In this document: positions 10,101 to 32,238 of the stretch, in pieces
Layout: each line of letters begins with the position of its first letter
Numbering within the stretch: position 1 is the first letter of the stretch
Source: Desulfuromonas sp.
GTDB lineage: Bacteria > Desulfobacterota > Desulfuromonadia > Desulfuromonadales > Geopsychrobacteraceae
DNA: 52,119 nucleotides
Reading direction: 5' to 3'
Assembly (NCBI GenBank): GCA_002869695.1
Contig: PKUD01000014.1
Location: 1 to 52,119, forward strand
The notes under the pieces: model-generated
Told to the model about the DNA's origin: nothing
The model's database searches: none
The model's input: only the letters and a program-made list of their open reading frames with translations
Translations under genes and position numbers: made by a program

Positions 10101-10499
10101 TATGAACTCTGGAAAGAAAACAACCGGATGATGAATCGCGGCGATCTGGTTCAGGCGATCCACCATGGAGCGGTCAAGCGGATTCGGCCGAAGGTTATGA
10201 CCATCTGCGTGATAATCGCCGGACTGATTCCGATCATGTGGAGTCACGGCGCCGGGGCTGACGTCATGAAACGGATCGCCGCGCCGATGGTCGGCGGGGT
10301 GATTACCTCCGGTGTTATGGAACTGCTGGTATTCCCGGTTATTTACTTTCTCTGGCGGGGGAGGTCGCTGGATCAGGATATGACTCCGACCACCACCGGC
10401 GAACTGAATGAATCTGAAACCTATATCAAGCGAGTGAGTCGAGCGGATTTTAACTCACGCGTTCACGACAACGAGTTTCCACCGGAACTGGAAACATAA
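7191..10499 (+). CDS. cusA: Heavy-metal RND efflux pump, CusA-like
   Basis: This 1102-residue inner-membrane proton antiporter of the HME-RND family has a full-length topology of twelve predicted membrane segments and two large periplasmic loops. The three methionines that carry Cu(I)/Ag(I) in E. coli CusA are present in the same contexts: LLYMPTTLPGIS, APLAMLETTI and TRIDMLSTGI. This supports copper/silver over zinc/cobalt as substrate. Membrane motifs GAMIDAAIIMIEN and ISAETGVVMLLYLD carry the charged relay residues. It lies 36 bp after the adaptor gene and is followed by a Met/His-rich protein. The C-terminal 50 residues are hydrophilic. Confidence 0.95.
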   Translation: MLEKLIEWSITNKFMVVLLTFFVIVGGIYALKNTPLDAIPDLSDVQVIVFTEYPGQAPQVVEDQVTYPLTTQMLAVPQAKTVRGYSFFGLSFVYIIFEDGTDLYWARSRVLEYLNYAAGRLPQGVNPSLGPDATGVGWVYEYVLESDRHDLQQLRSLQDWFLRYELTSVNGVAEVASIGGYVKQYQVEVDPDRLLAYNIGIPKIRMAIKQSNNDVGGRLVEMAETEFMVRGLGYIKSIEDLEMVVVGNDGRGTPILLRDVARVSIGPELRRGAAELDGQGEAVGGVVIMRYGGNALKTIENVKQKLEELQAGLPAGVTIKPVYDRSGLIERAVDNLTEKLIEESIVVAVVTALFLFHLSSSLVAILTLPIAILMAFIVMYAQGINANIMSLGGIAIAIGAMIDAAIIMIENAHKHLERDRGKKSHWAIITASCKEVGPSLFYALLVITVSFFPVFSLGEQSGRMFKPLAYTKTYAMAAGALLSVTLVPVLLGWFVRGKIPDEHKNPINRFLIWVYNPMVDFVIKWRKTVLVVALLITVSIIVPIQKMGSEFMPPLYEGDLLYMPTTLPGISITKAKELLQQTDKIISQFPEVERVFGKVGRAETATDPAPLAMLETTIMLKPESEWRIVPKQRFYSAWSEDFEWAKKPLRVVWPEQGPIDVEELKTELNNAIKFPGLTNAWTMPIKTRIDMLSTGIKTPVGIKVMGDDLAVLSRIGEEIEAVVREIPGTLSAFSERVVGGNYFDFEIDRNAVARYGLTVGDVQDTIKSAIGGMNVSQTVEGLERYPINIRYARDYRNDLPSLERVLIPTPSGQHIPISQVAEIKIKKGPPGIKSENARRTAWVYVDLKGVDVGSYVKQAQAVVNEKIKLPAGYNIVWSGQYEYMQAAAAKLKVVIPLTLLIIFVIIYVSTKSIIKTGIIFVALPLSLVGCFWFLWLLEYNMSVAVWVGIIALAGISAETGVVMLLYLDLAYELWKENNRMMNRGDLVQAIHHGAVKRIRPKVMTICVIIAGLIPIMWSHGAGADVMKRIAAPMVGGVITSGVMELLVFPVIYFLWRGRSLDQDMTPTTTGELNESETYIKRVSRADFNSRVHDNEFPPELET

Positions 10500-10522
10500 T
10501 CAACTCAACTGAACAGGAGAAT

Positions 10523-11041
10523 ATGATGAAGAAGCAAATGTTGGTAATGATGATTGTCGCGGCCATGATGATCCCGACCGGGGCTATTGCCATGAAGGGG
10601 ATGGATCACTCTGATCACGCGGCAAAAGAATCGAAGTCCCAAGACATGAAGGGGATGGACCACGGAAAGAAGATGGACCACGACAGTATGAAGATGGATG
10701 GCAAAATGATCATGCTGCAGGACCATGAAGTCGATGGAATGATGGGCTCGGCACACATGATGGATGTGAAGGAAAAAATGGCCGAGCATGGCATGAGCAT
10801 GACCCATCACATCATGGTAGGTTTCATGGACACCGAGGGGAATCCGGTTGACAAGGGGAGCGCGGCGGTGAAGATTGAAAGTCCTGATGGCACGGTCAGC
10901 AAACCGGTCAAAATGATGGGCATGGACGGGTCATTTGGCGCCGATATTACCCTCGACCAGAAAGGGATGTACCACTTCAAGGTAGGAACCAAGCTGGCTG
11001 ACGGCCAGAAAAGAACCTTCCATTTCCACTATGAAAACTGA
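10523..11041 (+). CDS. Met/His-rich periplasmic metal-binding protein
   Basis: This 172-residue product has a signal peptide (about 1-22, cleavage near GAIA). The mature N-terminal half is packed with MDH/MKGMDH motifs rich in Met, His and Asp, as in copper-sequestering proteins. The C-terminal half (about 95-172) is a beta-sandwich-like region with alternating hydrophobic residues, ending HFHYEN. An AGGAG lies six bases upstream of the ATG. Last gene of the efflux operon, 23 bp behind cusA, it probably buffers copper or silver in the periplasm and passes it to the pump (inference from composition and context). Confidence 0.85.
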   Translation: MMKKQMLVMMIVAAMMIPTGAIAMKGMDHSDHAAKESKSQDMKGMDHGKKMDHDSMKMDGKMIMLQDHEVDGMMGSAHMMDVKEKMAEHGMSMTHHIMVGFMDTEGNPVDKGSAAVKIESPDGTVSKPVKMMGMDGSFGADITLDQKGMYHFKVGTKLADGQKRTFHFHYEN

Positions 11042-11055
11042 TAGGAACTAATGTT

Positions 11056-11087
11056 CTGCAGGGGGCCGATTGCTCGGCCCCCTGCAG
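11056..11087 (+). terminator. Terminator-like hairpin after the metal efflux operon
   Basis: A perfect 14-bp GC-rich stem (11056-11069 with 11074-11087) closes a TTGC loop 14 bp after the last stop codon. It lacks a T-tract, so termination may be partial. Confidence 0.6.
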
Positions 11088-11207
11088 GGTCCGTGTCACT
11101 TCGTCCTGCCATCCTACGGTCCAGATCGCTTCTCTCTGCGGGCCACAGCGAACTGCTCAGGGGACCTTTTTCTCCCTGCGCATTGTATCCCCAACCGGTT
11201 GACTTTG

Positions 11208-11216
11208 TGCTATAAC
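11208..11216 (+). promoter_or_regulatory. Extended -10 promoter of the ABC-F gene
   Basis: TGCTATAAC at 11208-11216 is a TGnTATAAC extended -10 element 35 bp before the ATG. No matching -35 box is visible. Confidence 0.45.
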
Positions 11217-11251
11217 AATCTGCCGACTCATGCGAAAGGGATTCAGCGCAG

Positions 11252-13177
11252 ATGTTGCAGCTCAGACAGATCATCAAAGATTTTGCCGACCGGCGAATTT
11301 TCAATAAAATTGACTGGCATATACGTCCGGATGACCGGATTGGCCTCTGTGGTGAAAACGGAGCCGGAAAGTCGACTCTGCTGAAGATGCTTGCCGGCCT
11401 GGTCGAGGCGGACGCCGGCGTCGTCCAGTCAGCCAAGGGGACGACTTTCGGTTACCTCCCCCAGGACGGACTGGTTCATAGTGGCCTAAACCTGTTTGAT
11501 GAGGTTCACAGCGCACTGCAGGAACTGCTGGAAATTGAGGCGGAACTGCGGCGGCTCGAACAGGTTATTGCCGCAGGAGCCGGTCCGGAAGTTCTGGAAC
11601 GATATGCAGAACTTCAGGGGCTTTTTGAACAGCGCGGTGGCTACACCATGGAATCGGAAGTCGGGCGGGTATTGTCCGGTTTGGGCTTCAGCAATGCCGA
11701 TTTCAACAAACCCTGCGAGCATTTTTCCGGGGGCTGGCAAATGCGCATCGCCCTGGCCAAACTGCTGCTGCAGCGACCCACCCTGCTGCTGCTCGATGAG
11801 CCGACCAATCACCTCGATCTGCCCGCACGAGACTGGCTGGAGGACTACCTGCTGGCTTATCCGCACGCGGTGGTGCTGGTGTCGCATGACCGGTTTTTCC
11901 TGGACAAGGTGGTAGGACGGATCGTCGAAATATGGAACGGCGAATTGACCGAATACCCGGGCAACTATTCAAAATATCTCCTGGCGCGGGATGAGCGGGT
12001 TGCTGCGCTCAAGGCCGCCAAGAAGCAGCAGGATGAGGAGATCGCGCGTACCGAGGCTTTCATCAGCCGGTTCCGCTATCAGGCCAACAAAGCGGCGCTG
12101 GTTCAGAGCCGGGTCAAGCAGTTGGAAAAGGTCGAGCGGATCAGCCTGCCGCCTGAGAGAAAAAGGATCTCATTTACTTTTCCGCCACCACCCAAGGGGG
12201 GGCGCATTGCCCTCGAACTCAAGGGTGCGGCGCAGAGTTACGGATCTCTGCAGGTGTTACGTGATGTCGATCTGCTGATTGAACAGGGCGAGAGAGTTGC
12301 GCTGGTCGGGCCCAACGGAGCCGGCAAGTCAACCCTGATGCGCCTGCTGGCGGGAACAGAGGCCCCCGTCGCGGGTAGGCGCGAAGAAGGACATAATCTG
12401 ATTCTGGCCTATTTTGCCCAGGATCAGGCGGCGGAATTGAACCCGAAACGGGACGTCTATGCGGAACTGTCAGCCGATGCCCCTTTCGCCATGGTGCCGA
12501 AACTGCGCAACATTCTCGGGGCGTTTCTGTTTTCCGGGGATGACGTGGAAAAAAGAATTTCAGTTCTTTCCGGCGGTGAGCGCAACCGTCTGGCGCTGGC
12601 AAAACTTCTGCTGCGGCCAGCCAACCTGCTTCTGCTCGATGAGCCGACCAATCACCTCGATCTGCAGTCGAAACAGGTTCTGCTTGATTCCCTCAAGGGC
12701 TACAGCGGCACCATCGTGTTTGTTTCCCATGACCGGTATTTTGTCGACCAGCTGGCAACCAGGGTTCTCGAGGTTGGGCAGGGCCGGGTAGTGAGCTATC
12801 TCGGCAACTACGAAGATTTTTTGCGGGCCAAGGAAGGGCTCGGTGACCACAGTCACAGTCGCCAGCGTGTTGAACAGCAGGCCGAGGTCAGTGCTGACAG
12901 TGAATTGCCCTTCGACAAGGATGCCAGACTTCAGGCCCATGCCGAGCGGAAAGAGCGTCAGCGGCAAGAGCGCAAACTGCAGAAGGAAGTTGAGTTTCTG
13001 GAGTCCTGCATCGAATCGCTGGAAGGTCAACTCATCGATTTGGAACAAACGATGGCTGATCCTGATCTTTATCAGGATCAGCAACGTTGGAAAGAGGTGA
13101 GCAGCGAACACGCACACCTGAAGCAGGAGCTGGAAAAGACATACGGGCGCTGGGAAAAGCTGCAGGAACAGGTATGA
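11252..13177 (+). CDS. ABC-F family ATPase (Uup/YheS-like)
   Basis: This 641-residue cytosolic protein has two ABC ATPase domains and no membrane segment. ABC-F proteins act on ribosomes in translation. Domain 1 has Walker A GENGAGKST (about 34-42), signature FSGGW and Walker B LLLLDEPTNHLDL. Domain 2 has GPNGAGKST, LSGGE and an identical LLLLDEPTNHLDL. The charged linker between them (about 240-300) is the ribosome-binding arm region. The C-terminal about 100 residues form a Lys/Glu/Gln coiled coil like the CTD of Uup. The stop codon overlaps a downstream ATG (ATGA) of the ParA-like gene, suggesting coupling. Confidence 0.93.
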   Translation: MLQLRQIIKDFADRRIFNKIDWHIRPDDRIGLCGENGAGKSTLLKMLAGLVEADAGVVQSAKGTTFGYLPQDGLVHSGLNLFDEVHSALQELLEIEAELRRLEQVIAAGAGPEVLERYAELQGLFEQRGGYTMESEVGRVLSGLGFSNADFNKPCEHFSGGWQMRIALAKLLLQRPTLLLLDEPTNHLDLPARDWLEDYLLAYPHAVVLVSHDRFFLDKVVGRIVEIWNGELTEYPGNYSKYLLARDERVAALKAAKKQQDEEIARTEAFISRFRYQANKAALVQSRVKQLEKVERISLPPERKRISFTFPPPPKGGRIALELKGAAQSYGSLQVLRDVDLLIEQGERVALVGPNGAGKSTLMRLLAGTEAPVAGRREEGHNLILAYFAQDQAAELNPKRDVYAELSADAPFAMVPKLRNILGAFLFSGDDVEKRISVLSGGERNRLALAKLLLRPANLLLLDEPTNHLDLQSKQVLLDSLKGYSGTIVFVSHDRYFVDQLATRVLEVGQGRVVSYLGNYEDFLRAKEGLGDHSHSRQRVEQQAEVSADSELPFDKDARLQAHAERKERQRQERKLQKEVEFLESCIESLEGQLIDLEQTMADPDLYQDQQRWKEVSSEHAHLKQELEKTYGRWEKLQEQV

Positions 13178-22425: not shown

Positions 22426-23730
22426 ATGCACAAGGGAATTTTAGTTGTACTGATGGTATTGCTATTGTCGCCGTTGCAGGCAGCGGCGTTTGATGTCGCG
22501 CAGTTGCAGATTAATGGATTCCTGTCTCAGGGATATCTCGACAGCAGCGAAAACAGCTTCCTGGCTGGCGACTCTGTGGATGGGACAACAGAGTTCAATG
22601 AAGTAGGGATTGCAGTCAGCACCCAGATCAGTGATAAGCTGCGCGCCGGAATGCAGCTTTTATCTCGCGATCTCGGCAATGTGGGAAATAATGAGGTCCG
22701 ACTCGACTGGGGCTTTGCTGACTATCGCCATGAAGATTATCTCGGTGTACGGATAGGTAAGGTTAAGCTGCCGATGGGCCTGTATAATGAGGGTCGCGAC
22801 ACTGACATGCTACGCCCGATGGTCTTCCTGCCCCAGAGTATTTATGATGAAACCAAGCGAGATCTGCTGGTGGCTTACCAGGGGGGCGGTCTCTACGGTA
22901 ACCTCTCTTTCGGTGTGCTTGGCGATCTGGATTATCATGGATTTTACGGTGGGATTAACATTGGCGACGAATCTCTGTTGATCAATGCCCTTCAGCAAAA
23001 TGCCTCGTTCACCCTGACCAGCGCCAACGCGACTGGTCCTTTAGGGTTTGCCGACCAGTACAAGGTCAACAACGTTGAAGTGGACAACGATTACATCGCG
23101 GGTGGTGGCTTGGTACTTAATTCCGCCCTTGACGGACTTCGGCTCGGTGTGTCATGGCTGACTGTCCAGAATCAGCTTTCTTACAGTGGTATGATCACCG
23201 AGTCGCAAATGAATCCCGGTATGCCACCGACACCAAATACCAGCCCCGATATCATTGGTACCATTCCTCCAAGTGTGGGGCAACTGAACAATGAAGCCAC
23301 GTACGTGGCTTCATTGGAATATGTATATGAGAACCTTACCCTTGTCGGCGAGTATTCTGAAACAGAAAGAAAGCAGAAGTTTGGCAATATCACCGCGATT
23401 GACGCAACCTCGCAATCCTACTACGTGATGGCCGCCTATACGTTCATGGATCGGATGACCGTTTCAGCCCTTTACGATGTCTATTACTCTGACAAGGATG
23501 ACAAGGACGGTGATGCGTTTGCTGCCACCAGTCCCAGCCGGCAGGACTTTTTCAGCTGGCGTAAGGATCTGGGTGTCGGTGTCCGTTACGACATCACCCC
23601 CAACTGGCTGGTCAAGGCGGAATACCACGATGTTGATGGCGCCGCGCTGTTCCTGACGACGGTGAACGATCCTGCCGAACTGGAGCAGGACTGGGATTAC
23701 TTTGTTGTCAAAACGTCGGTCAACTTCTAA
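22426..23730 (+). CDS. Outer-membrane beta-barrel porin-like protein
   Basis: This 434-residue product has a signal peptide (about 1-22, ending QAAAFD). Many amphipathic alternating strands follow, and it ends in an aromatic-terminated strand (DYFVVKTSVNF), the mark of BAM-inserted barrels. The N-terminal run QINGFLSQGYLDSSENSFL and the stretch VRIGKVKLPMGLYNE resemble porins of the phosphate-selective/OprP-like superfamily. The gene is 13 bp upstream of a small periplasmic binding-protein-like gene. A role as channel for that protein's ligand is inferred. Strong AGGAGGAG precedes the ATG. Confidence 0.8.
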   Translation: MHKGILVVLMVLLLSPLQAAAFDVAQLQINGFLSQGYLDSSENSFLAGDSVDGTTEFNEVGIAVSTQISDKLRAGMQLLSRDLGNVGNNEVRLDWGFADYRHEDYLGVRIGKVKLPMGLYNEGRDTDMLRPMVFLPQSIYDETKRDLLVAYQGGGLYGNLSFGVLGDLDYHGFYGGINIGDESLLINALQQNASFTLTSANATGPLGFADQYKVNNVEVDNDYIAGGGLVLNSALDGLRLGVSWLTVQNQLSYSGMITESQMNPGMPPTPNTSPDIIGTIPPSVGQLNNEATYVASLEYVYENLTLVGEYSETERKQKFGNITAIDATSQSYYVMAAYTFMDRMTVSALYDVYYSDKDDKDGDAFAATSPSRQDFFSWRKDLGVGVRYDITPNWLVKAEYHDVDGAALFLTTVNDPAELEQDWDYFVVKTSVNF

Positions 23731-23743
23731 GAGGAGGTAGCAG

Positions 23744-24166
23744 ATGAAAATCAAAATTGTCCTTATGCTCGTTGCCGCTGCCTTCGTCTTTTCGAATGTC
23801 GCTCTGGCCGCAGACTATGTCCTGGTTGTGAACAAAGGTAATGCCGTTTCGAGCATTGATGCGAAAGACGCTAAGAAGATTTTTCTCGGGAAAAAGTCGT
23901 CCTGGAACAATGGTGAGCGGATTGTTCTCTACAGTCAGCAGAATCAGACGCTGACCGAGGCGTTCAGCGAAGGTGTGGTCAGGAAATCAGCTCAACAGTT
24001 CATGGTTTTCTGGAAGAAAGCTCTCTTTACCGGAACAGGCAAACCGCCAGTCGAAGTCTCCGATGATGCCCAGATGAAGCAGGCTATTGCAGCTGATCCC
24101 AAAGGGATTGGATATATCAGTGCATCGGCAATGGACGGTACGGTTAAGCAGCTCATTATCAATTAA
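23744..24166 (+). CDS. Small PstS-like periplasmic protein (single-lobe PBP-like)
   Basis: This 140-residue secreted protein (signal peptide about 1-22, cleaving at ALAA) matches the short PBP-like family often labelled phosphate ABC transporter substrate-binding protein. It has DYVLVVNKGNAVSSIDAKDAKKIFLGKKSSW and PKGIGYISASAMDG. At this length it has about half of a normal PstS, and there are no PstCAB genes nearby. It sits between a porin-like gene and a chemoreceptor. This suggests ligand presentation to the receptor, not uptake (inference). GAGGAGG lies nine bases before the ATG. Confidence 0.78.
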   Translation: MKIKIVLMLVAAAFVFSNVALAADYVLVVNKGNAVSSIDAKDAKKIFLGKKSSWNNGERIVLYSQQNQTLTEAFSEGVVRKSAQQFMVFWKKALFTGTGKPPVEVSDDAQMKQAIAADPKGIGYISASAMDGTVKQLIIN

Positions 24167-26006: not shown

Positions 26007-26050
26007 AAACAGGACAAGGGTGCTCAGAATTGTGTTCCTTTGTCCTGTTT
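26007..26050. terminator. Bidirectional terminator shared by chemoreceptor and cobI
   Basis: AAACAGGACAA (26007-26017) pairs with TTGTCCTGTTT (26040-26050), followed by more T. The loop contains the cobI stop codon, so the 3' end of cobI lies inside the terminator. The chemoreceptor and cobI genes are convergent here. Confidence 0.75.
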
Positions 26051-26785
26051 TTCCTCTTTCTGCCAGCTTTTTTCTCCCGTTCTAACAATAACTGTTGTCA
26101 TATAGTTCAGCTCCTGGGGAGCCCAAAGTTCAAGATCCTCAACCACCAGTTCCTGTGCCCCGTGTTCGACACAGCTGACCAGCCTGCTTGACGAGAGCAG
26201 ATTTTTGTTTTTCAACAACGCTATCAAGTCAACAATTACCCCGGCCGCTTTGTAGAGGACCAGCGTTTCACAATGACTGAGCGCGTTCTCCACAGCCTTC
26301 AGGTCGGTCGCCGACATCAGTGTCAAGCGGTCCTCTTGCAGGGTCAGTGGATCGTGAAACCGGCTGGCCCCGATCTGGAAGGCACTGATGCCGGGTATAA
26401 TGTGAATTTTCTCCTTTGCCAATCTTTCAGACAGACCATAGAGCAGGTAGCTGGTTGTCGCAAATATCAGCGGGTCGCCGATGGTGATCATCGCCACCGA
26501 TCTGCCCTGCTGCAACTCTTGCATTACCTCTTCGGCAACCCTGCGCCATCGTTCCTGGGTGTTGCTGCCGTTACGCTGCATCGGGTAGTTGACAGTCATG
26601 ACCTCCTGCTGGTGGAGGTAGGGTGCGATAGCATTGAGTGCCAACGAGCGGTTGCTCCCCTTGGCCTGCGGCGTGAGGATGACATCAACCGCTTCAATGA
26701 TATTGACCGCGCGAACTGTCAGCAGATCTGGTGAGCCGGGGCCGATGCCGACGGCATAGAAGTGTCCGGGTTGGATTTTCTGCAT
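26024..26785 (-). CDS. cobI: Precorrin-2 / cobalt-factor II C20-methyltransferase
   Basis: This 253-residue SAM-dependent methyltransferase of the tetrapyrrole methylase family opens with FYAVGIGPGSPDLLTVRAV and has the internal loops TIGDPLIF (about 103-110) and IIPGISAFQIGAS (about 133-145). These are diagnostic of CobI/CbiL. The enzyme methylates C20 of precorrin-2 or, in the anaerobic pathway, of cobalt-sirohydrochlorin, the direct product of CbiK. That chelatase heads this same operon, which favours the anaerobic (CbiL) role. It is the last gene of the riboswitch-led operon, 55 bp after the binding-protein gene. Confidence 0.92.
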   Translation of the reverse strand: MQKIQPGHFYAVGIGPGSPDLLTVRAVNIIEAVDVILTPQAKGSNRSLALNAIAPYLHQQEVMTVNYPMQRNGSNTQERWRRVAEEVMQELQQGRSVAMITIGDPLIFATTSYLLYGLSERLAKEKIHIIPGISAFQIGASRFHDPLTLQEDRLTLMSATDLKAVENALSHCETLVLYKAAGVIVDLIALLKNKNLLSSSRLVSCVEHGAQELVVEDLELWAPQELNYMTTVIVRTGEKSWQKEEKQDKGTQF

Positions 26786-26840
26786 AGAAAAACTTTCTTG
26801 TGATGGTCTCGCCGGGGTCCTTGAAACGTCCGAGCCGGGG

Positions 26841-27620
26841 TTATTTGTAGTTTGAAAAAAACCTGTTCAGCGCCAAAATATTATCAAAGCTTAGGGTGTT
26901 TGCCCGGGAATATTGCAGTTGTTCGACCCGCAGATACGCGGACTGCAATGCGCGATACTGCCCTCGCTCACGTGGCGGGGTCGGCTGCTGGTTCATCGGT
27001 CCGACCTGCCAGATGTAGATGTCAGGTTGTAGCGCCAGAACCGCTTCCGGGTTGAACCGAAGCAACTTGCGGTTGCCGCCGCTTATAAAGTTACCACCCG
27101 CCGTGTTGATCATGTCGGCAATGATATTGCTGCTGCCGGCGATAGTCAGAGGAACTTCGCTGATTTCATAAATGACCCGCGGCGATTCCACCAGGGGTTG
27201 CAGTTTCTCCAGTTTCTCTCGCTGCATTTCGATCAGGTCGAGCGCCTGCTGCTCCCTGCCGATCAGCCTCGCCAGATCACGTGTCTGTTCAAGAATTTCT
27301 GCGAGACGGGTCGGGTTGTAGAAGAAGATATCAGCATTAATTTTCTCTGCCATCTCGTGGGAAAAGAACCTGTTTGAAGAAATGATCAGCAGATCGGGAT
27401 CGAGTGCTGTAATCAGTTCCAGGTTCGGCCGGATATGCGAGCCGATCTGCTGTGCCTTCGGAAATTCCGTAACGTTACGGGTTTTACCGACGACCAGCTC
27501 TGCGGCACCCAGTTTGTCGATGATGTCCGCCGCGGCCGGAGCGAGTATAACGATCCGGTCCGCGGCATAACTAGTTGTGCTGAAAAGTAAAAGCAGCAGC
27601 GCCGCGAGTAACCTGTACAT
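26841..27620 (-). CDS. BtuF/FecB-like periplasmic binding protein of a metal-chelate importer
   Basis: This 259-residue product has a signal peptide (about 1-19, ending TSYAA) and the TroA/BtuF-type fold: RIVILAPAAADIIDKLGAAELVVG, then PNLELITALDPDLLIIS. Family members bind cobalamin, haem or ferric siderophores for an inner-membrane ABC importer. The gene overlaps the ATPase gene by 50 bp, an unusually long overlap. Its start is supported by GGAG eight bases ahead. In this riboswitch operon the ligand is probably a corrinoid or its cobalt-tetrapyrrole precursor (inference). Confidence 0.88.
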   Translation of the reverse strand: MYRLLAALLLLLFSTTSYAADRIVILAPAAADIIDKLGAAELVVGKTRNVTEFPKAQQIGSHIRPNLELITALDPDLLIISSNRFFSHEMAEKINADIFFYNPTRLAEILEQTRDLARLIGREQQALDLIEMQREKLEKLQPLVESPRVIYEISEVPLTIAGSSNIIADMINTAGGNFISGGNRKLLRFNPEAVLALQPDIYIWQVGPMNQQPTPPRERGQYRALQSAYLRVEQLQYSRANTLSFDNILALNRFFSNYK

Positions 27621-28308
27621 CGTACGTCTCCGTCAGCAATTCCGGGGTGAGTTGTGCCCGGGGGACATCGGCCAGCAGTCTGCCCTTTTTGAGCAGCAGG
27701 AAACGGTCAAAGAAGCGTTCAGCAAGACTGATATCGTGCACCGGTGAGATGACCGTCTCGCTTCTGCCGGACAGCAGCTTGAAAATCTCCAGGGTATGAC
27801 GGATGTCGAGACTGGCATTGGGCTCATCCAGGAAAATAATCGGGGCGTCCTGATTGAGTACCCTGGCCATCATTACCCGGCGTTTCTCCCCCCCGGAAAG
27901 CTGGTTAAAAGGTCGTTTGCGCAAGTTGAGCAGGTCGAGATCCTGCATCTGCTGTTCACTCAGCCGCCAGTCCTCGTCGCTGAAACTGTTCCCGCGGGTA
28001 TGCGGATAACGGCCGAATAGCACCACTTCTTCGACACTGAAAGGGAAAATAACTTCGGCAAACTGGGGCAGAAGGGCAAAAATAAGCGCCCGGTCCGCAA
28101 CTGGAATTTTGTCGAGTTGGCGTTCGTTATAAGAGATTCTGCCATGACCGTGCAAAGAGCCGCAGAGCAGGTGCAGCAGGGTGCTTTTGCCGCTGCCGTT
28201 CTCTCCAAGAATGGCAACTTTCTCTCCCGGAGCGATAACCAGCTGATCCAGCGTCAGCTGGAATTTGCCACGCTGAAAGTTCAGATATTCTATCCGCAGC
28301 TCAGCCAT
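27571..28308 (-). CDS. ABC importer ATPase, BtuD/FecE-like
   Basis: This 245-residue ATPase has Walker A GENGSGKST (about 35-43), signature LSGGEKRRVMMAR, Walker B IIFLDEPNASLD and an H-loop in ISPVHDISLAE. It powers the FecCD-type permease encoded upstream, whose 3' end it overlaps by 8 bp. It belongs to the importer class that moves cobalamin, haem or siderophores. Substrate assignment depends on the B12 riboswitch control. Confidence 0.92.
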   Translation of the reverse strand: MAELRIEYLNFQRGKFQLTLDQLVIAPGEKVAILGENGSGKSTLLHLLCGSLHGHGRISYNERQLDKIPVADRALIFALLPQFAEVIFPFSVEEVVLFGRYPHTRGNSFSDEDWRLSEQQMQDLDLLNLRKRPFNQLSGGEKRRVMMARVLNQDAPIIFLDEPNASLDIRHTLEIFKLLSGRSETVISPVHDISLAERFFDRFLLLKKGRLLADVPRAQLTPELLTETYDVQVTRGAAAFTFQHN

Positions 28309-29251
28309 GCCAGAACCTTTCGCGTCGGGTCTTCAGCAGATAGAGGAAGAAGACGCCACCGAGCAGGGCCGTAATAATACCGACCGGGAGTTCTGCACCG
28401 CCGGGGATAATTGAGCGAGAGGCCGCATCGGCAAAAATCAGCAGCAGGGCACCCAGCAGCATGGAGAAGAACAGATTCTGGCGCATGTCACTGCCGAACA
28501 GGCTGCGGGCAACATGTGGCACGATCAATCCGACAAAACCGATGATTCCGGTATGGCTCACCGCGACGGCAACCAGGGTTGTGGCGACGATGAAGGCAAT
28601 TGTCCGCAGCCGCTCGACGTTGACCCCCAGGCTCTGCGCCGAGTGTTCATCAAGGGCCAGCATATTGAGCTGCAAAGCGCGGACTGAGAAGAGCAGATAG
28701 GCGATCAGCAGGGTCGCCGTACAGAGCATCAGTTTGCCCCAGTCAATGACGAAAAAGCCTCCCATCAACCAGAAGACAATCGAGGAGAGGGAGTCTTCAA
28801 AAAAATACTTGGCGAAGCTGATTACCGAAGAGGCGACGATGTTCATCACCACGCCCGCGAGAATCATCGTCACCGGGTTGATGACGCCGTTGGTTTTCGA
28901 CAGCCGATAGACTATGAGCAGACCGAGCAGCCCGGTTGCGAGTGCAGTGATCGGAACCAGCGGCAGTGGCAGGCCGAAGGCGATCGCCAGCACCGCTCCG
29001 AGAGCCGAAGAGCTGGCCGCGCCTGTGGTGAAGCTGTCGGCCAGGGGGTTTTTCAGGGTCAGTTGGTAGACGCTTCCCGAAAGGCCGAGCATTGCGCCGA
29101 TGACCGCTGAAAATAGCACCCGGGGAAGGCGTAGTGAAAGCATAATATCCCGCTCCACCGCGGACATTTCGAACGGATTGATGGCGGTAGATCCGATCAG
29201 GCATGAACCGGCCAGGCTGAGCAGGAAAATTATCAAGACTAACTTTTTCAT
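28301..29251 (-). CDS. ABC importer permease, BtuC/FecCD family
   Basis: This 316-residue inner-membrane protein has about nine to ten hydrophobic segments. It contains family motifs RLPRVLFSAVIGAMLGLSGSVYQ, NPLADSFTTGAASS and FVGLIVPHVARSLFG. It forms the channel as a homodimer with the BtuD-like ATPase. It is 42 bp downstream of the ABC-2 permease gene in the riboswitch operon. Confidence 0.94.
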   Translation of the reverse strand: MKKLVLIIFLLSLAGSCLIGSTAINPFEMSAVERDIMLSLRLPRVLFSAVIGAMLGLSGSVYQLTLKNPLADSFTTGAASSSALGAVLAIAFGLPLPLVPITALATGLLGLLIVYRLSKTNGVINPVTMILAGVVMNIVASSVISFAKYFFEDSLSSIVFWLMGGFFVIDWGKLMLCTATLLIAYLLFSVRALQLNMLALDEHSAQSLGVNVERLRTIAFIVATTLVAVAVSHTGIIGFVGLIVPHVARSLFGSDMRQNLFFSMLLGALLLIFADAASRSIIPGGAELPVGIITALLGGVFFLYLLKTRRERFWHG

Positions 29252-29293
29252 AGTGTGAGCTACAATATGCTTTCTGGCTCAAAATAGATGAAA

Positions 29294-30040
29294 TCAGATT
29301 TCAACACGGCTGACAATCCGTTTTGCAATCAGGAACAGTCCGAGCAGAATTCCGAGCAGGACGACATAAAGCGCATAGTTGATCTCCATCCCGGGCGTCA
29401 GGGTGGTACGGATCAGCTGGGTCGAATAGGTCAGCGGGAAGATGCTGGCCACCACCCTGATTGCCAGCGGCATCTGGTCTACCGGAAAGAAGGTTCCGGA
29501 GAGGAACATCATCGGAGTGATCAGAAAGGCATTGATGGTTGCCTGGTCGCTGTGGCTTTTGACGACCATCGCGGCGATGAAACCGAGCAGGGCAAAAATC
29601 GCCAGATGCAGCAGCAGGGCCGGTAGGAACAGTATGCTGAAACGCAGGTCAATGCTACACAGCAGACTGTAACCGCCGATGATCAGAACCGGGATCAGTC
29701 CCCGGGTGATTCCATAGCATACTTCGCCAACGACAATCTGCCAGCGCGGTAGCGGTGCCAGCAGGTATTCCTCAAACACCTTGAAATAGAAGCGCGAGAT
29801 ATTGATTTCGGTGGAGATGCCATAGGACTGGTTCATGCTGCTCATGGTCAGCAGGCCCGGCAACAGAAATGCGAGGTAGTCGACGCCGCTGACCTGAGCA
29901 CCGCGGCCGACGCCGTAGCCGAAAGCGAGCAGAAACAGTGCGGGAGAGACCCCTGAGGCGAGCAGGGTTTTGCCCAGTTTGCGGCGCAGAATGAGAATTT
30001 CACGCAGGTAGATAGCCCGTGCTCCATGCAGCAGCATCAC
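29294..30040 (-). CDS. ABC-2 type permease (exporter)
   Basis: This 248-residue membrane protein of the ABC-2/NodJ-DrrB group has six hydrophobic segments and a family-typical LSGTFFPVDQMPLAIRVVASIFPLTY near residue 185. ABC-2 permeases work as exporters. Its start overlaps the end of the preceding ATPase gene by 4 bp, so the two form one transporter. An exporter pair inside a B12-riboswitch operon with an importer and chelatase is unusual. Its substrate is unknown, and a tetrapyrrole or metal is a possibility (inference). Confidence 0.88.
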   Translation of the reverse strand: MMLLHGARAIYLREILILRRKLGKTLLASGVSPALFLLAFGYGVGRGAQVSGVDYLAFLLPGLLTMSSMNQSYGISTEINISRFYFKVFEEYLLAPLPRWQIVVGEVCYGITRGLIPVLIIGGYSLLCSIDLRFSILFLPALLLHLAIFALLGFIAAMVVKSHSDQATINAFLITPMMFLSGTFFPVDQMPLAIRVVASIFPLTYSTQLIRTTLTPGMEINYALYVVLLGILLGLFLIAKRIVSRVEI

Positions 30041-30939
30041 TCGATCCTCTTGCCGGTCAATTGCAGGAAGACGTCCTCCAGGGTGGTCTCACGAATTCTC
30101 ACCGAGGTGTCGAGCTGCTCGAGTCGCTGCAACGCCAGCGATCGTTCTGCAAAAAACTCATTGTCGATCTGGTCTCCATTGTAGATATCGAGAACAACGT
30201 TGCCGGCTGACTGTTTCAGCTGGCCTGGTGTCCCACCGGCGATAATTCTTGCCTGATCGATGATCAGCACCCGGTCGGCCAGTGCTTCCGCCTCCTCGAT
30301 GTAGTGGGTGGTGAGAAAGACCGTGCAGTTCTGTTCCTGGTTGATACGGCGAAGAAATGCCCACATCCTGCGCCGGCTGTGCGGATCAAGGCCGACCGTC
30401 GGTTCGTCGAGAAAGAGAATTTCCGGCTGGTGGAGCAGGGCGCGGGCGATGACCAGTTTGCGTTTCATCCCTCCGGAGAGCTTCCCTGCCGGCGTGTCCC
30501 GCTTGTCGGACAGGTCGGCAAACATCAGGCAGGAGTCGATTTGCCGCTTTAGCACGCTGCCGCACATGCCGAACAGGCGTCCATGGATCAGCAGGTTCTC
30601 GGCGACGGTCAGTTCGCGGTCAAGGTTGTTGTGCTGCGGAACCACTCCGATCAATTGCTTGGTTCTCAGCTGCTGTGGGTCGAACAGATCTCCATGATAA
30701 CGGATCTCTCCGGCAGTTGGTTTGAGCAGCCCGGTGAGCATGTTGATTGTGGTGGTTTTTCCGGCACCGTTCGGGCCGAGAAAAGCAAACAGCTCACCAC
30801 GGCCGACCCTGAAATCGAGTGAGTCAACGGCAATCGTCTTAGCAAAACTGCGGGAAAGTCCGGACACTTCAATCTCGCAGGGACGACCATTACAGCTGGT
30901 GATGTCAGCGCAGTTCAATGCCGGCTCCCGCAGCTGCAT
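30037..30939 (-). CDS. ABC-2 exporter ATPase (NodI/DrrA-like)
   Basis: This 300-residue ATPase has Walker A GPNGAGKTTT, signature LSGGMKRKL, Walker B ILFLDEPTVGLDP and H-loop LTTHYIEEAEALADRV. These are typical of exporter ATPases of the DrrA/NodI type, with the usual C-terminal domain of about 80 residues. It overlaps cbiK by 35 bp at its 5' end and the ABC-2 permease gene by 4 bp at its 3' end. This points to tight co-expression with both. Confidence 0.92.
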   Translation of the reverse strand: MQLREPALNCADITSCNGRPCEIEVSGLSRSFAKTIAVDSLDFRVGRGELFAFLGPNGAGKTTTINMLTGLLKPTAGEIRYHGDLFDPQQLRTKQLIGVVPQHNNLDRELTVAENLLIHGRLFGMCGSVLKRQIDSCLMFADLSDKRDTPAGKLSGGMKRKLVIARALLHQPEILFLDEPTVGLDPHSRRRMWAFLRRINQEQNCTVFLTTHYIEEAEALADRVLIIDQARIIAGGTPGQLKQSAGNVVLDIYNGDQIDNEFFAERSLALQRLEQLDTSVRIRETTLEDVFLQLTGKRIE

Positions 30940-31882
30940 CCCGGAGATGACTGAGGAAGAGTCTACGAATCGCAGCGTTGTTCCCCAGCCCTTCGAGCAG
31001 CAGTTTCGGGGTTATCCCGGCTGCAAGCAGACGGGTTTTCCAGGAATCATCAGCGTCGCCGGCCATGTCGTTCTTGGCATGGTCGCCGGCAACAACCATT
31101 AGGGGCTTGAGCAGAACACGCTCGGCCTTCGTCTCCTCCAGTCTGGCCAAAACCTGGTCCGGAGTGGGGTGCCCCTCCACCAGACCGATCATGGTCGTGA
31201 CGTCAGGGTACATGTCCGTCATGACCCGCTGCAGGTCTGAATAGACAGCGTTTGACAGGTGCTCATTGCCATGACCGACATAGAGCAGGATCGCCTGCAG
31301 TTTATGCGCCTGCTTGACATCCTCTGCGAGAGCCCCTGCGAGGCAGTGAAGGTCCTGCTGCACCGAATGGTTGTTCTCCGGCGATCCCATCAGGGGTCTG
31401 CCAAGGACAATCCTGTCGAAGGGCTGCCAGCGAGGTTTAACGGTTACGATCGACAGTAGGCCGTTGATATAGCTCTGCAGGTCGCTGAACTCCTCTCCGG
31501 CGGTGAGCAGGGTAGGCTGGACGACGATGGTTTTGTAGCCCTGATTCTGCAGGTCAGCCAGCGTGCCGAGGATATTTTTGACCTGGTAGATCATTTCCGG
31601 GATGCCCGGATGCTGCGCCCGGAAATCCTTGTCGCTGGACCTCTGGTGCCACCGCTTGCGGATGATATTGGACGTGAAGGCCAGTCTTACAGGTGTCTGC
31701 GGGTAGCGGTCGACCGTGTCGCGAACGATACCAAGGAGTGAGTCAAGGGCATCACTGTGAGTGGTGCCGAATGCGGCAATGACAATCGCCGTTGCTGGTT
31801 TCTCCATGGTAACAATTCCCTCGCAGCGGAACGGGATGAGGGAAAAGCAGAGCAACAGAAAAAGAGGATATCGATGTCGCAC
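30905..31882 (-). CDS. cbiK: Sirohydrochlorin cobaltochelatase CbiK, predicted exported
   Basis: CbiK inserts Co(II) (or Fe) into sirohydrochlorin. The 325-residue product has the chelatase fold with AIVIAAFGTTHSDAL at the start of the mature part. Probable metal ligands are His204 (VGHGNEH), Glu236 (LVEGHP) and His268 (AGDHAKND), spaced like the His/Glu/His set of Desulfovibrio CbiK-P. GTG 31882 is chosen because GGGAGAGG stands four bases upstream. It yields RHRYPLFLLLCFSLIPFRC, a basic then hydrophobic signal peptide. The alternative ATG 31807 would give a cytosolic form but has no comparably strong site. First gene of the riboswitch operon. Confidence 0.88.
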   Translation of the reverse strand: MRHRYPLFLLLCFSLIPFRCEGIVTMEKPATAIVIAAFGTTHSDALDSLLGIVRDTVDRYPQTPVRLAFTSNIIRKRWHQRSSDKDFRAQHPGIPEMIYQVKNILGTLADLQNQGYKTIVVQPTLLTAGEEFSDLQSYINGLLSIVTVKPRWQPFDRIVLGRPLMGSPENNHSVQQDLHCLAGALAEDVKQAHKLQAILLYVGHGNEHLSNAVYSDLQRVMTDMYPDVTTMIGLVEGHPTPDQVLARLEETKAERVLLKPLMVVAGDHAKNDMAGDADDSWKTRLLAAGITPKLLLEGLGNNAAIRRLFLSHLRDAAAGAGIELR

Positions 31883-31896
31883 GTTGCCTCTCCCGG

Positions 31897-31937
31897 ACAA
31901 AACATAAAAGCCCGCAAACCGAATGGTCTGCGGGCTT
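31897..31937 (-). terminator. Riboswitch expression-platform terminator upstream of cbiK
   Basis: On the minus strand a stem of about 13 bp (31937-31925 with 31920-31908, one mismatch, ATTC loop) is followed by TTTTATGTTTT. It lies between the cobalamin riboswitch and the cbiK ribosome binding site, so B12 binding would be expected to stop transcription here. Confidence 0.85.
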
Positions 31938-31984
31938 CCCGTTTATAAAGCTTGCAGTCGCCACCCTCCCATGGTCCCGGGGAG

Positions 31985-32160
31985 GTTCGTGTGGGGCGTT
32001 CGTCTCGGCAGGTCTTCTGGCTAGCGATTCGTTCTCCGGGCCGCCTTCCCGGAATGTCCCAGTGGCTGTCTGGCCCTTCGTCATCGCTCACAGCGGCGGG
32101 TCCGCGGGGGATTCTCACCCCTCTTCCCGTGACCGGCGAACAGGTTTTGGTTGAGCTCTG
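31985..32160 (-). promoter_or_regulatory. Cobalamin (B12) riboswitch
   Basis: Read on the minus strand it has, in order, GGGAAGAGGGGTGAGAATCC, GACCCGCCGCTGTGAGCG, GACAGCCACTGGGA and the B12 box AGCCAGAAGACCTGCCG. This is the complete set of conserved cobalamin-riboswitch segments. It is followed by an intrinsic terminator, then the seven-gene operon from cbiK to cobI. Boundaries are approximate. Confidence 0.95.
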
Positions 32161-32238
32161 TTTATACGGCACCAACGCCGGAGCTGTCAATGAATCATCG
32201 GGTTATTCGTTCGTCTTATCCGCCTGAAACGCGGGGGG

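Follow-up and report, generated by a model that had tools for sequence, protein, structure and literature searches.

The cbiK operon and its riboswitch

We analyzed a stretch of 52,119 nucleotides (hereafter the window) from Desulfuromonas sp. (Geopsychrobacteraceae), i.e., positions 1-52,119 of the forward strand of contig PKUD01000014.1 in assembly GCA_002869695.1. On its minus strand, positions 26024-32191 hold one B12 riboswitch, a terminator-like hairpin, and seven packed genes in the order cbiK, ABC-2 ATPase, ABC-2 permease, FecCD permease, FecE ATPase, BtuF-like binding protein, and cbiL (ABC, ATP-binding cassette). Neighboring genes overlap or are spaced by less than 60 bases, and all seven reading frames are open and match the expected Pfam families. 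The features are as follows (aa, amino acids; anti-SD, anti-Shine-Dalgarno pairing):

31990..32191, minus strand: cobalamin riboswitch RF00174 (88.7 bits; gathering threshold 31.5)
31906..31939, minus strand: terminator-like hairpin between riboswitch and cbiK (15-pair stem, then a T-rich tail)
30905..31882, minus strand: CbiK, 325 aa, GTG start, N-terminal signal peptide (PF06180; leader by simple tests)
About 31817-31882, minus strand: CbiK signal peptide (hydrophobic leader; cleavage site not clear)
31805..31807, minus strand: in-frame ATG inside CbiK that may act as an alternative start for a cytosolic form (anti-SD -6.4 kcal/mol)
30037..30939, minus strand: ABC-2 type exporter ATPase (DrrA/NodI-like), 300 aa (PF00005, 119 bits; cut-off 25)
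29294..30040, minus strand: ABC-2 type exporter permease, 248 aa (PF01061, 85.2 bits; cut-off 26.9)
28301..29251, minus strand: FecCD-type importer permease, 316 aa (PF01032, 262.9 bits)
27571..28308, minus strand: FecE/BtuD-type importer ATPase, 245 aa (PF00005, 92.7 bits)
26841..27620, minus strand: BtuF/IsdE-like binding protein, 259 aa, hydrophobic leader by eye (PF01497, 67 bits)
26024..26785, minus strand: CbiL/CobI C20-methyltransferase, 253 aa, next enzyme after cobalt insertion (TIGR01467, 187.7 bits; cut-off 163.25)

The RF00174 match and the hairpin supply both an aptamer and an expression platform, and the hairpin region (31895-32000) folds with a z-score of -3.06. Judging from this anatomy, the element would work as a B12 switch of the transcription-terminating kind, with bound B12 halting transcription before cbiK. 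The original prediction, made from the sequence of the window, had proposed a single B12-riboswitch operon encoding an exported CbiK, an ABC-2 pair, a FecCD-type importer, and CbiL. The riboswitch match, the Pfam families, and the open frames confirm that operon, including its claim of exactly one exporter and one importer (one ABC-2 pair and one FecCD/FecE/BtuF-like set). Its span of 26024-32160 clips the riboswitch slightly, given that this element extends to 32191.

CbiK matches PF06180 at 225.8 bits (cut-off 26.2; read from an earlier TTG) and does not reach the NCBIfam CbiK equivalog (143.9 bits versus a cut-off of 400). Its catalytic residues, His204 and His268, are invariant in 20 sequences and align to those of 2xvx and 1qgo. 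The latter is the CbiK of Salmonella, a fellow member of the class II chelatase family that we take to be cytosolic and to lack a signal peptide; we know of no dedicated transporters for it. The best start for the CbiK of the window is the GTG at 31882, which is preceded by GGGAGAGG and yields the leader MRHRYPLFLLLCFSLIPFRCEG. For comparison, we used a family sample of 44 genomes, including a clade of 12 with the ABC-2 operon to which the genome of the window (G000; 3.29 Mb, 219 contigs, 97% complete) belongs. A leader is present on all 12 clade CbiK proteins, varying in sequence and constant in character.

Export was called with our own simple tests for a signal peptide or lipobox. These were positive in 83 of 104 non-truncated CbiK domains, including 12 of 12 from the clade; one truncated domain was set aside. 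Since mostly exported CbiK served to collect the sample, the proportion does not estimate prevalence. For cytosolic proteins encoded in these loci and used as controls, a closely similar test was positive in seven of 183. The test may undercount exported forms, as many Bacillota proteins called negative have long linkers preceding the domain, and the lipoprotein label given to the CbiK of clade member G001 is probably a false lipobox. The ABC-2 ATPase gene overlaps cbiK by 35 bases, and its product scores 272.6 bits against TIGR01188, under the cut-off of 312.45.

The reading that we favor for this operon, which we regard as evenly balanced between right and wrong, is a loop of export, extracytoplasmic cobalt insertion, and re-import. 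At low B12, the riboswitch would let transcription of the operon through. Cytosolic sirohydrochlorin would then be moved out by the ABC-2 pair, whose direction and cargo are both putative, and CbiK, if processed and exported as its leader suggests, would insert Co2+ into it outside the cytoplasm. The BtuF-like protein would bind cobalt-sirohydrochlorin and the FecCD/FecE importer would carry it back into the cytosol, for CbiL and the products of a second cob operon (described below) to continue the synthesis. Sirohydrochlorin would in this way double as a cobalt carrier.

Conservation of the operon and of the partners of CbiK

A PF06180 match was found in 26 of the 44 family genomes. The clade count of 12 excludes G034, in which a clade-type CbiK has a broken frame, and G024, in which 79 residues remain at a contig end. 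All seven genes are complete and in the same order in 10 of the 12 clade contigs, counting that of the window; contig ends truncate the remaining two, leaving six of the genes in G022 and CbiK alone in G037. A riboswitch lies upstream of the operon in 12 of 12 genomes, with that of G020 just under the cut-off at 31.2 bits. The complete order in nine other genomes, together with the riboswitches throughout the clade, excludes a chance arrangement. In three genomes (G022:C67, G028:C9, and G029:C23), a tandem pair of B12 riboswitch aptamers precedes the operon.

Within the family, exported CbiK occurs with the ABC-2 pair in 11 genomes, with the membrane protein CbtX in five, and with neither nearby in three. 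In contrast, the signal-less CbiK proteins of G041, G042, and G026 have neither the ABC-2 pair nor CbtX, and two of them are near a cobalt importer. Those of G041 and G042 fall in a 15-row set (98* in a quick tree) whose other 13 members are exported; they are encoded in riboswitch-led clusters with CbiM and CbiQ within ~3 kb of CbiK, and genes for an ABC-2 permease, FecC, and a BtuF-like protein were not found in 20 kb. The signal-less CbiK of G026 groups with the CbtX type, and no CbtX match was found in the G026 genome. CbtX was detected in six of the 44 genomes, five of them with a called signal peptide on a short CbiK plus G011, where CbiK is cut. It was absent from all 12 clade genomes and from all three with signal-less CbiK. 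A further locus (L239, in G034:C259) encodes the clade-type CbiK with the frame broken near its start and no ABC-2 pair downstream in 7.1 kb; this genome has the CbtX type, and the broken gene may be a replaced remnant or contamination.

We also surveyed CbiK loci in other genomes. The starting alignment consisted mostly of exported CbiK, and of the 583 relatives confirmed for it the best 80 were used (L095-L097 in this set correspond to G028, G020, and G023). An ABC-2 permease was present in seven of these loci and CbtX in nine, never both. In a Desulfotomaculum metagenome-assembled genome (MAG; L143), CbiL, FecC, FecE, a lipobox CbiK, a binding protein, and the ABC-2 pair form one run behind a riboswitch. 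All seven functions are encoded in two divergent runs in Geothermobacter (L127), each run being headed by a riboswitch, and in a Lachnospiraceae genome (L172), with a riboswitch ahead of the run of CbiK and importer only. A planctomycete locus (L137) has all but CbiL in the stretch covered, and its riboswitch faces CbiK and the binding protein. The set of ABC-2 pair, CbiK, and importer hence spans three phyla. A riboswitch screen of distant loci covered 10 of 16 intended and found the element in seven, with none in L100, L122, and L166. Clustering of signal-peptide-bearing cbiK with the ABC-2 pair, which the original prediction had proposed as a check, was thus borne out in the family and in three phyla. 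As a separate observation, the binding proteins beside exported CbiK in L101 (9883-11316) and L143 (9869-11284) end in C-terminal S-layer homology domains.

These distributions also bear on the cargo of the exporter. ABC-2 transporters as a group carry varied cargo, and most exported-CbiK loci among the best 80 of 583 do not have the pair. The pair could therefore move something unrelated, e.g., a toxic metal complex, with the loop relying on another exporter or on leakage. Its recurrence with the same partners in three phyla argues otherwise, as does the ABC-2 permease being confined to the operon's own copies among 95 other loci (304 kb, mostly ~3 kb each, and hence a weak control). We consider an unrelated cargo very unlikely indeed.

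CbtX (COG3366) was found with exported CbiK in L100, L102, L105, L111, L112, L113, L114, L120, and L126. Earlier work describes it as adjoining cbiK and as a candidate cobalt transporter (PMC545781) and lists it among predicted cobalt transporters (PMC2667541). Given its distribution, CbtX may instead be an exporter of the ring rather than a cobalt importer, taking the place of the ABC-2 pair, to which it is unrelated. The wider proposal, that an intermediate is sent out for metal loading through two unrelated exporters, the ABC-2 pair and CbtX, with CbtX exporting the ring, is tentative and in our view somewhat more apt to fail than to hold.

Chelatases and importer in the genome of the window

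The original prediction had named a cytosolic CbiK elsewhere in the genome, sufficient for B12 synthesis, as evidence that would tell against the loop. No such chelatase was found in the 97% complete assembly: there is one PF06180 match and hence no second CbiK; no cytosolic CbiX was detected, the CbiX matches being CbiK itself and a 942-aa lipoprotein; and CobN was not found. The lipoprotein (L041; G000:C116:8307-11135; lipobox by eye) has CbiX and ferrochelatase-like domains followed by FG-GAP repeats and is a putative second extracytoplasmic protein of the chelatase fold.

Nearly all other pathway genes lie in a second riboswitch operon on contig C62. CobD, CbiB, a CbiH-CbiP fusion, CbiF, CbiET, CbiD, a ThiC-family gene, CbiA, CobT, CobC, CobS, and CobU are over the NCBIfam cut-offs; CbiG, CbiC, and BtuR are best matches under cut-off. 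CbiK and CbiL are absent from it (CbiJ was outside the search). The single-contig genome of clade member G016 shows the identical split of cob genes, with one CbiK, two riboswitches, and no CbiX match; here the genes lie within a 20 kb stretch. In G000 (L040; C62:2727-5027 and 10108-11415), CbiH and CbiP are fused in a 766-aa frame, and the ThiC-family gene matches the BzaB model below cut-off.

The importer belongs to the same ABC importer superfamily, with the same fold, as BtuFCD. However, it comes nowhere near the equivalog cut-offs for BtuF (39.5/234), BtuC (208.3/461 and 189.5/334), or BtuD (95.7/281). In profile searches, the binding protein is closest to IsdE (67.1 bits), V. cholerae BtuF (63.1), and a staphylococcal iron-binding protein (58.6), followed by HmuT (53.6), ShuT (52.9), and E. 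coli BtuF (43.5-50.1); its predicted structure (mean predicted local distance difference test, pLDDT, 89.9) finds the same group. We aligned the binding proteins with the checked sequence of E. coli BtuF; of the contact residues of the latter, PDB titles back Trp66 only. The pocket differs: Trp66 is replaced by an invariant His, Trp85 by a gap, and Trp196 by Leu/Met/Ile (Phe in one). Columns 48, 64, 84, 184, 185, 188, and 219 are all basic (Arg or Lys) in 12 or more of the 13 sequences; these seven are our own choice as near pocket loops, placed by a distant alignment and not by coordinates. Column 239 is basic too and common to BtuF.

CysG holds the eight carboxylates of sirohydrochlorin via residues such as Arg, Lys, and Asn (PMC7018833), and the basic residues of the binding protein would fit a ligand with many carboxylates. 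Haem is likewise a candidate. Exported CbiK and the importer might handle haem or iron; the original prediction had considered such a role for exported CbiK. The binding protein resembles IsdE, HmuT, and ShuT just as closely as it does BtuF. FetB, a haem-binding protein by its PDB naming, is a CbiK homologue; we take it to be IhtB of P. gingivalis. CbiK-P of Desulfovibrio is reported, in a paper of 2017, to bind haem too. In P. gingivalis, the Iht system (IhtA-E) joins an exported CbiK homologue to a binding protein, permease, and ATPase (PMC10913741), and FetB is covered in a further review (PMC13402209). Unlike the operon of the window, Iht includes a TonB receptor and serves haem or iron, and the text examined mentions no B12 riboswitch, CbiL, or ABC-2 exporter in it. 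No TonB-dependent receptor was found in G000 (0 Plug domains in the 97% complete assembly), and with it no counterpart of this Iht partner. The B12 riboswitch and CbiL in the operon, and the riboswitches beside the distant sets, also speak against a haem or iron role, which we judge to be very unlikely.

The operon is flanked by an OmpA-type gene upstream on the same strand and, past cbiL, by a chemotaxis receptor gene on the other strand. Ahead of a chemotaxis receptor, window positions 22426-24166 hold a porin-like gene and then a 140-aa exported protein that, by our own reading of the sequence, resembles the short phosphate-binding type.

Alternatives to the loop and its meaning

Several observations weigh against the loop. 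With regard to export itself, the leader of the window's CbiK has no clean A-x-A cleavage motif, and the internal in-frame ATG pairs with the anti-SD sequence at -6.4 kcal/mol or better in eight of the 12 clade genomes. This ATG lies right after the predicted cleavage region and reaches -7.7 to -10.0 kcal/mol in seven of them; in G001, the internal site (-10.0) is far stronger than the GTG (-3.5). By comparison, of the 118 in-frame ATGs lying inside 14 window genes, 8% reach -7 or better and 19% reach -6 or better. Some clade members may thus make a second, cytosolic CbiK. It might be that such a short form inserts cobalt for B12 and that the exported form and the importer are secondary, e.g., for cobalt capture. 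This explanation leaves both the exporter and the importer unexplained, and the lipoprotein CbiK of Bacillota has the same partners. Moreover, no such pairing was found at the internal ATG in G016, G018, G020, and G023, and among 25 Met-after-Ala/Gly sites in CbiK, the seven that reach -7 are all within the clade. We regard two CbiK forms as an improbable account of the operon. We rejected the broader idea that a conserved Met following the cleavage site generally serves as a second start, since it found no support outside genera g1 and g7 and G022.

With regard to the remainder of the genome, a CysG N-terminal-like protein is encoded in the hem operon of G000 and G016. CysG can insert cobalt although it is iron-selective (PMC7018833), so that exported CbiK is the only dedicated cobaltochelatase seen and not the only possible one. 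G000 also has a CbiM homologue, which falls below the NCBIfam cut-offs for cobalt CbiM and has a C-terminal extension; its contig shows no riboswitch match. TonB-dependent receptor plugs number one to four in each of the other 11 clade genomes. In G020, a BtuB-like receptor (L215; G020:C177:55231-56014; 246 bits, cut-off 599.7) is directly behind a B12 riboswitch, making corrinoid salvage possible in that genome. In the binding protein, conserved basic columns also occur elsewhere (22, 122, and 148), together with eleven conserved acidic columns, and His62 is shared with V. cholerae BtuF. For this last reason, we dropped the invariant His62 as proof of a metallo-tetrapyrrole ligand. The idea that periplasmic chelation replaces any cobalt importer was likewise found unsupported, given the CbiM homologue in G000 and in 18 of the 22 genomes searched.

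Several of these points favor an alternative, raised for finished corrinoids by the original prediction, in which the importer salvages outside corrinoids or their precursors. CbiK and CbiL would then simply be co-regulated with it, and the CysG-like protein would insert cobalt in the cytosol. The FecCD/BtuF family and the B12 riboswitch are in keeping with this, and the corresponding Desulfovibrio transporter is named btuCDF in PMC545781. However, the lack of a TonB-dependent receptor in G000 leaves an outside corrinoid without an obvious way in, and the two receptors of G016 best match siderophore and copper types, neither being closest to the B12 type. The unreached Btu cut-offs and the lost pocket tryptophans also count against salvage; in addition, the genome has a nearly complete de novo set, and the exporter would be unexplained. 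Salvage is thus weakened for the window, with the G020 receptor still in its favor, and we consider it unlikely but worth serious attention.

The comparative data add further exceptions. In G019, G021, and G031, CbiK is exported and neither an ABC-2 pair nor an importer was found in the stretches covered; CbtX was absent genome-wide. The check for ABC-2 and importer genes beside CbtX-type CbiK covered G002, G034, and G043 (G005 and G015 lay outside it), and an importer was found in none of the three within 20 kb. About two independent cases support the pattern in which CbiK loses its export together with its partner. Given these few events and the three genomes without partners, the contrast between exported and signal-less CbiK is suggestive only. 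Among the best 80 of 583 distant loci, many others with exported CbiK have neither the ABC-2 pair nor CbtX. Two Pseudodesulfovibrio MAGs (L128 and L129) encode a second, signal-less CbiK near the exported one, and L135, L136, and L161 likewise have an additional CbiK domain in which no signal was called; the exported CbiK of these five loci may serve otherwise. In L128 and L129, the order is exported CbiK, importer, a CbiL-like gene (at 12694 and 10765, respectively), and then signal-less CbiK, all on the same strand.

Taken together, the loop put forward in the original prediction holds up in part: the rival chelatases were not found and the clustering recurs, whereas the CysG-like protein, the internal start, and the G020 receptor detract from it.

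The closest known system is that of Desulfovibrio, where one B12 element governs cbiK-cbiL and btuCDF (PMC545781). It resembles the operon of the window in placing CbiK, a FecCD-type importer, and CbiL under one B12 riboswitch; it differs in that the importer is called a B12 transporter and no ABC-2 pair is mentioned in the text examined. The same source limits CbiMNQO to Geobacter among its delta-proteobacteria, and a riboswitch has been described ahead of cbiK-P in Oleidesulfovibrio alaskensis (PMC11124144). The CbiK of the window is like CbiK-P in carrying an N-terminal signal peptide by our simple tests, albeit with a weak cleavage motif. Desulfovibrio also has a cytosolic CbiK, and the Pseudodesulfovibrio loci above have a second, signal-less one; none was found in G000. 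Cobalt insertion by CbiK has been framed by cytosolic metal availability (PMC7689651). Neither exported CbiK with an ABC-2 pair nor a model of sirohydrochlorin export was found in the literature searched, which largely excluded subscription journals. The combination of CbiK, importer, and CbiL is hence already known from Desulfovibrio; what was not found in that literature is the link to the ABC-2 pair, the occurrence of the set across phyla, and the division of CbiK into exported and signal-less forms.

If the loop of export, cobalt insertion, and re-import is correct, one step of B12 synthesis would happen outside the cytoplasm. This would account for the signal peptide on the CbiK of many relatives and link orphan transporters to this chelatase. 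It would also provide one answer to the question of cobalt's route into B12.

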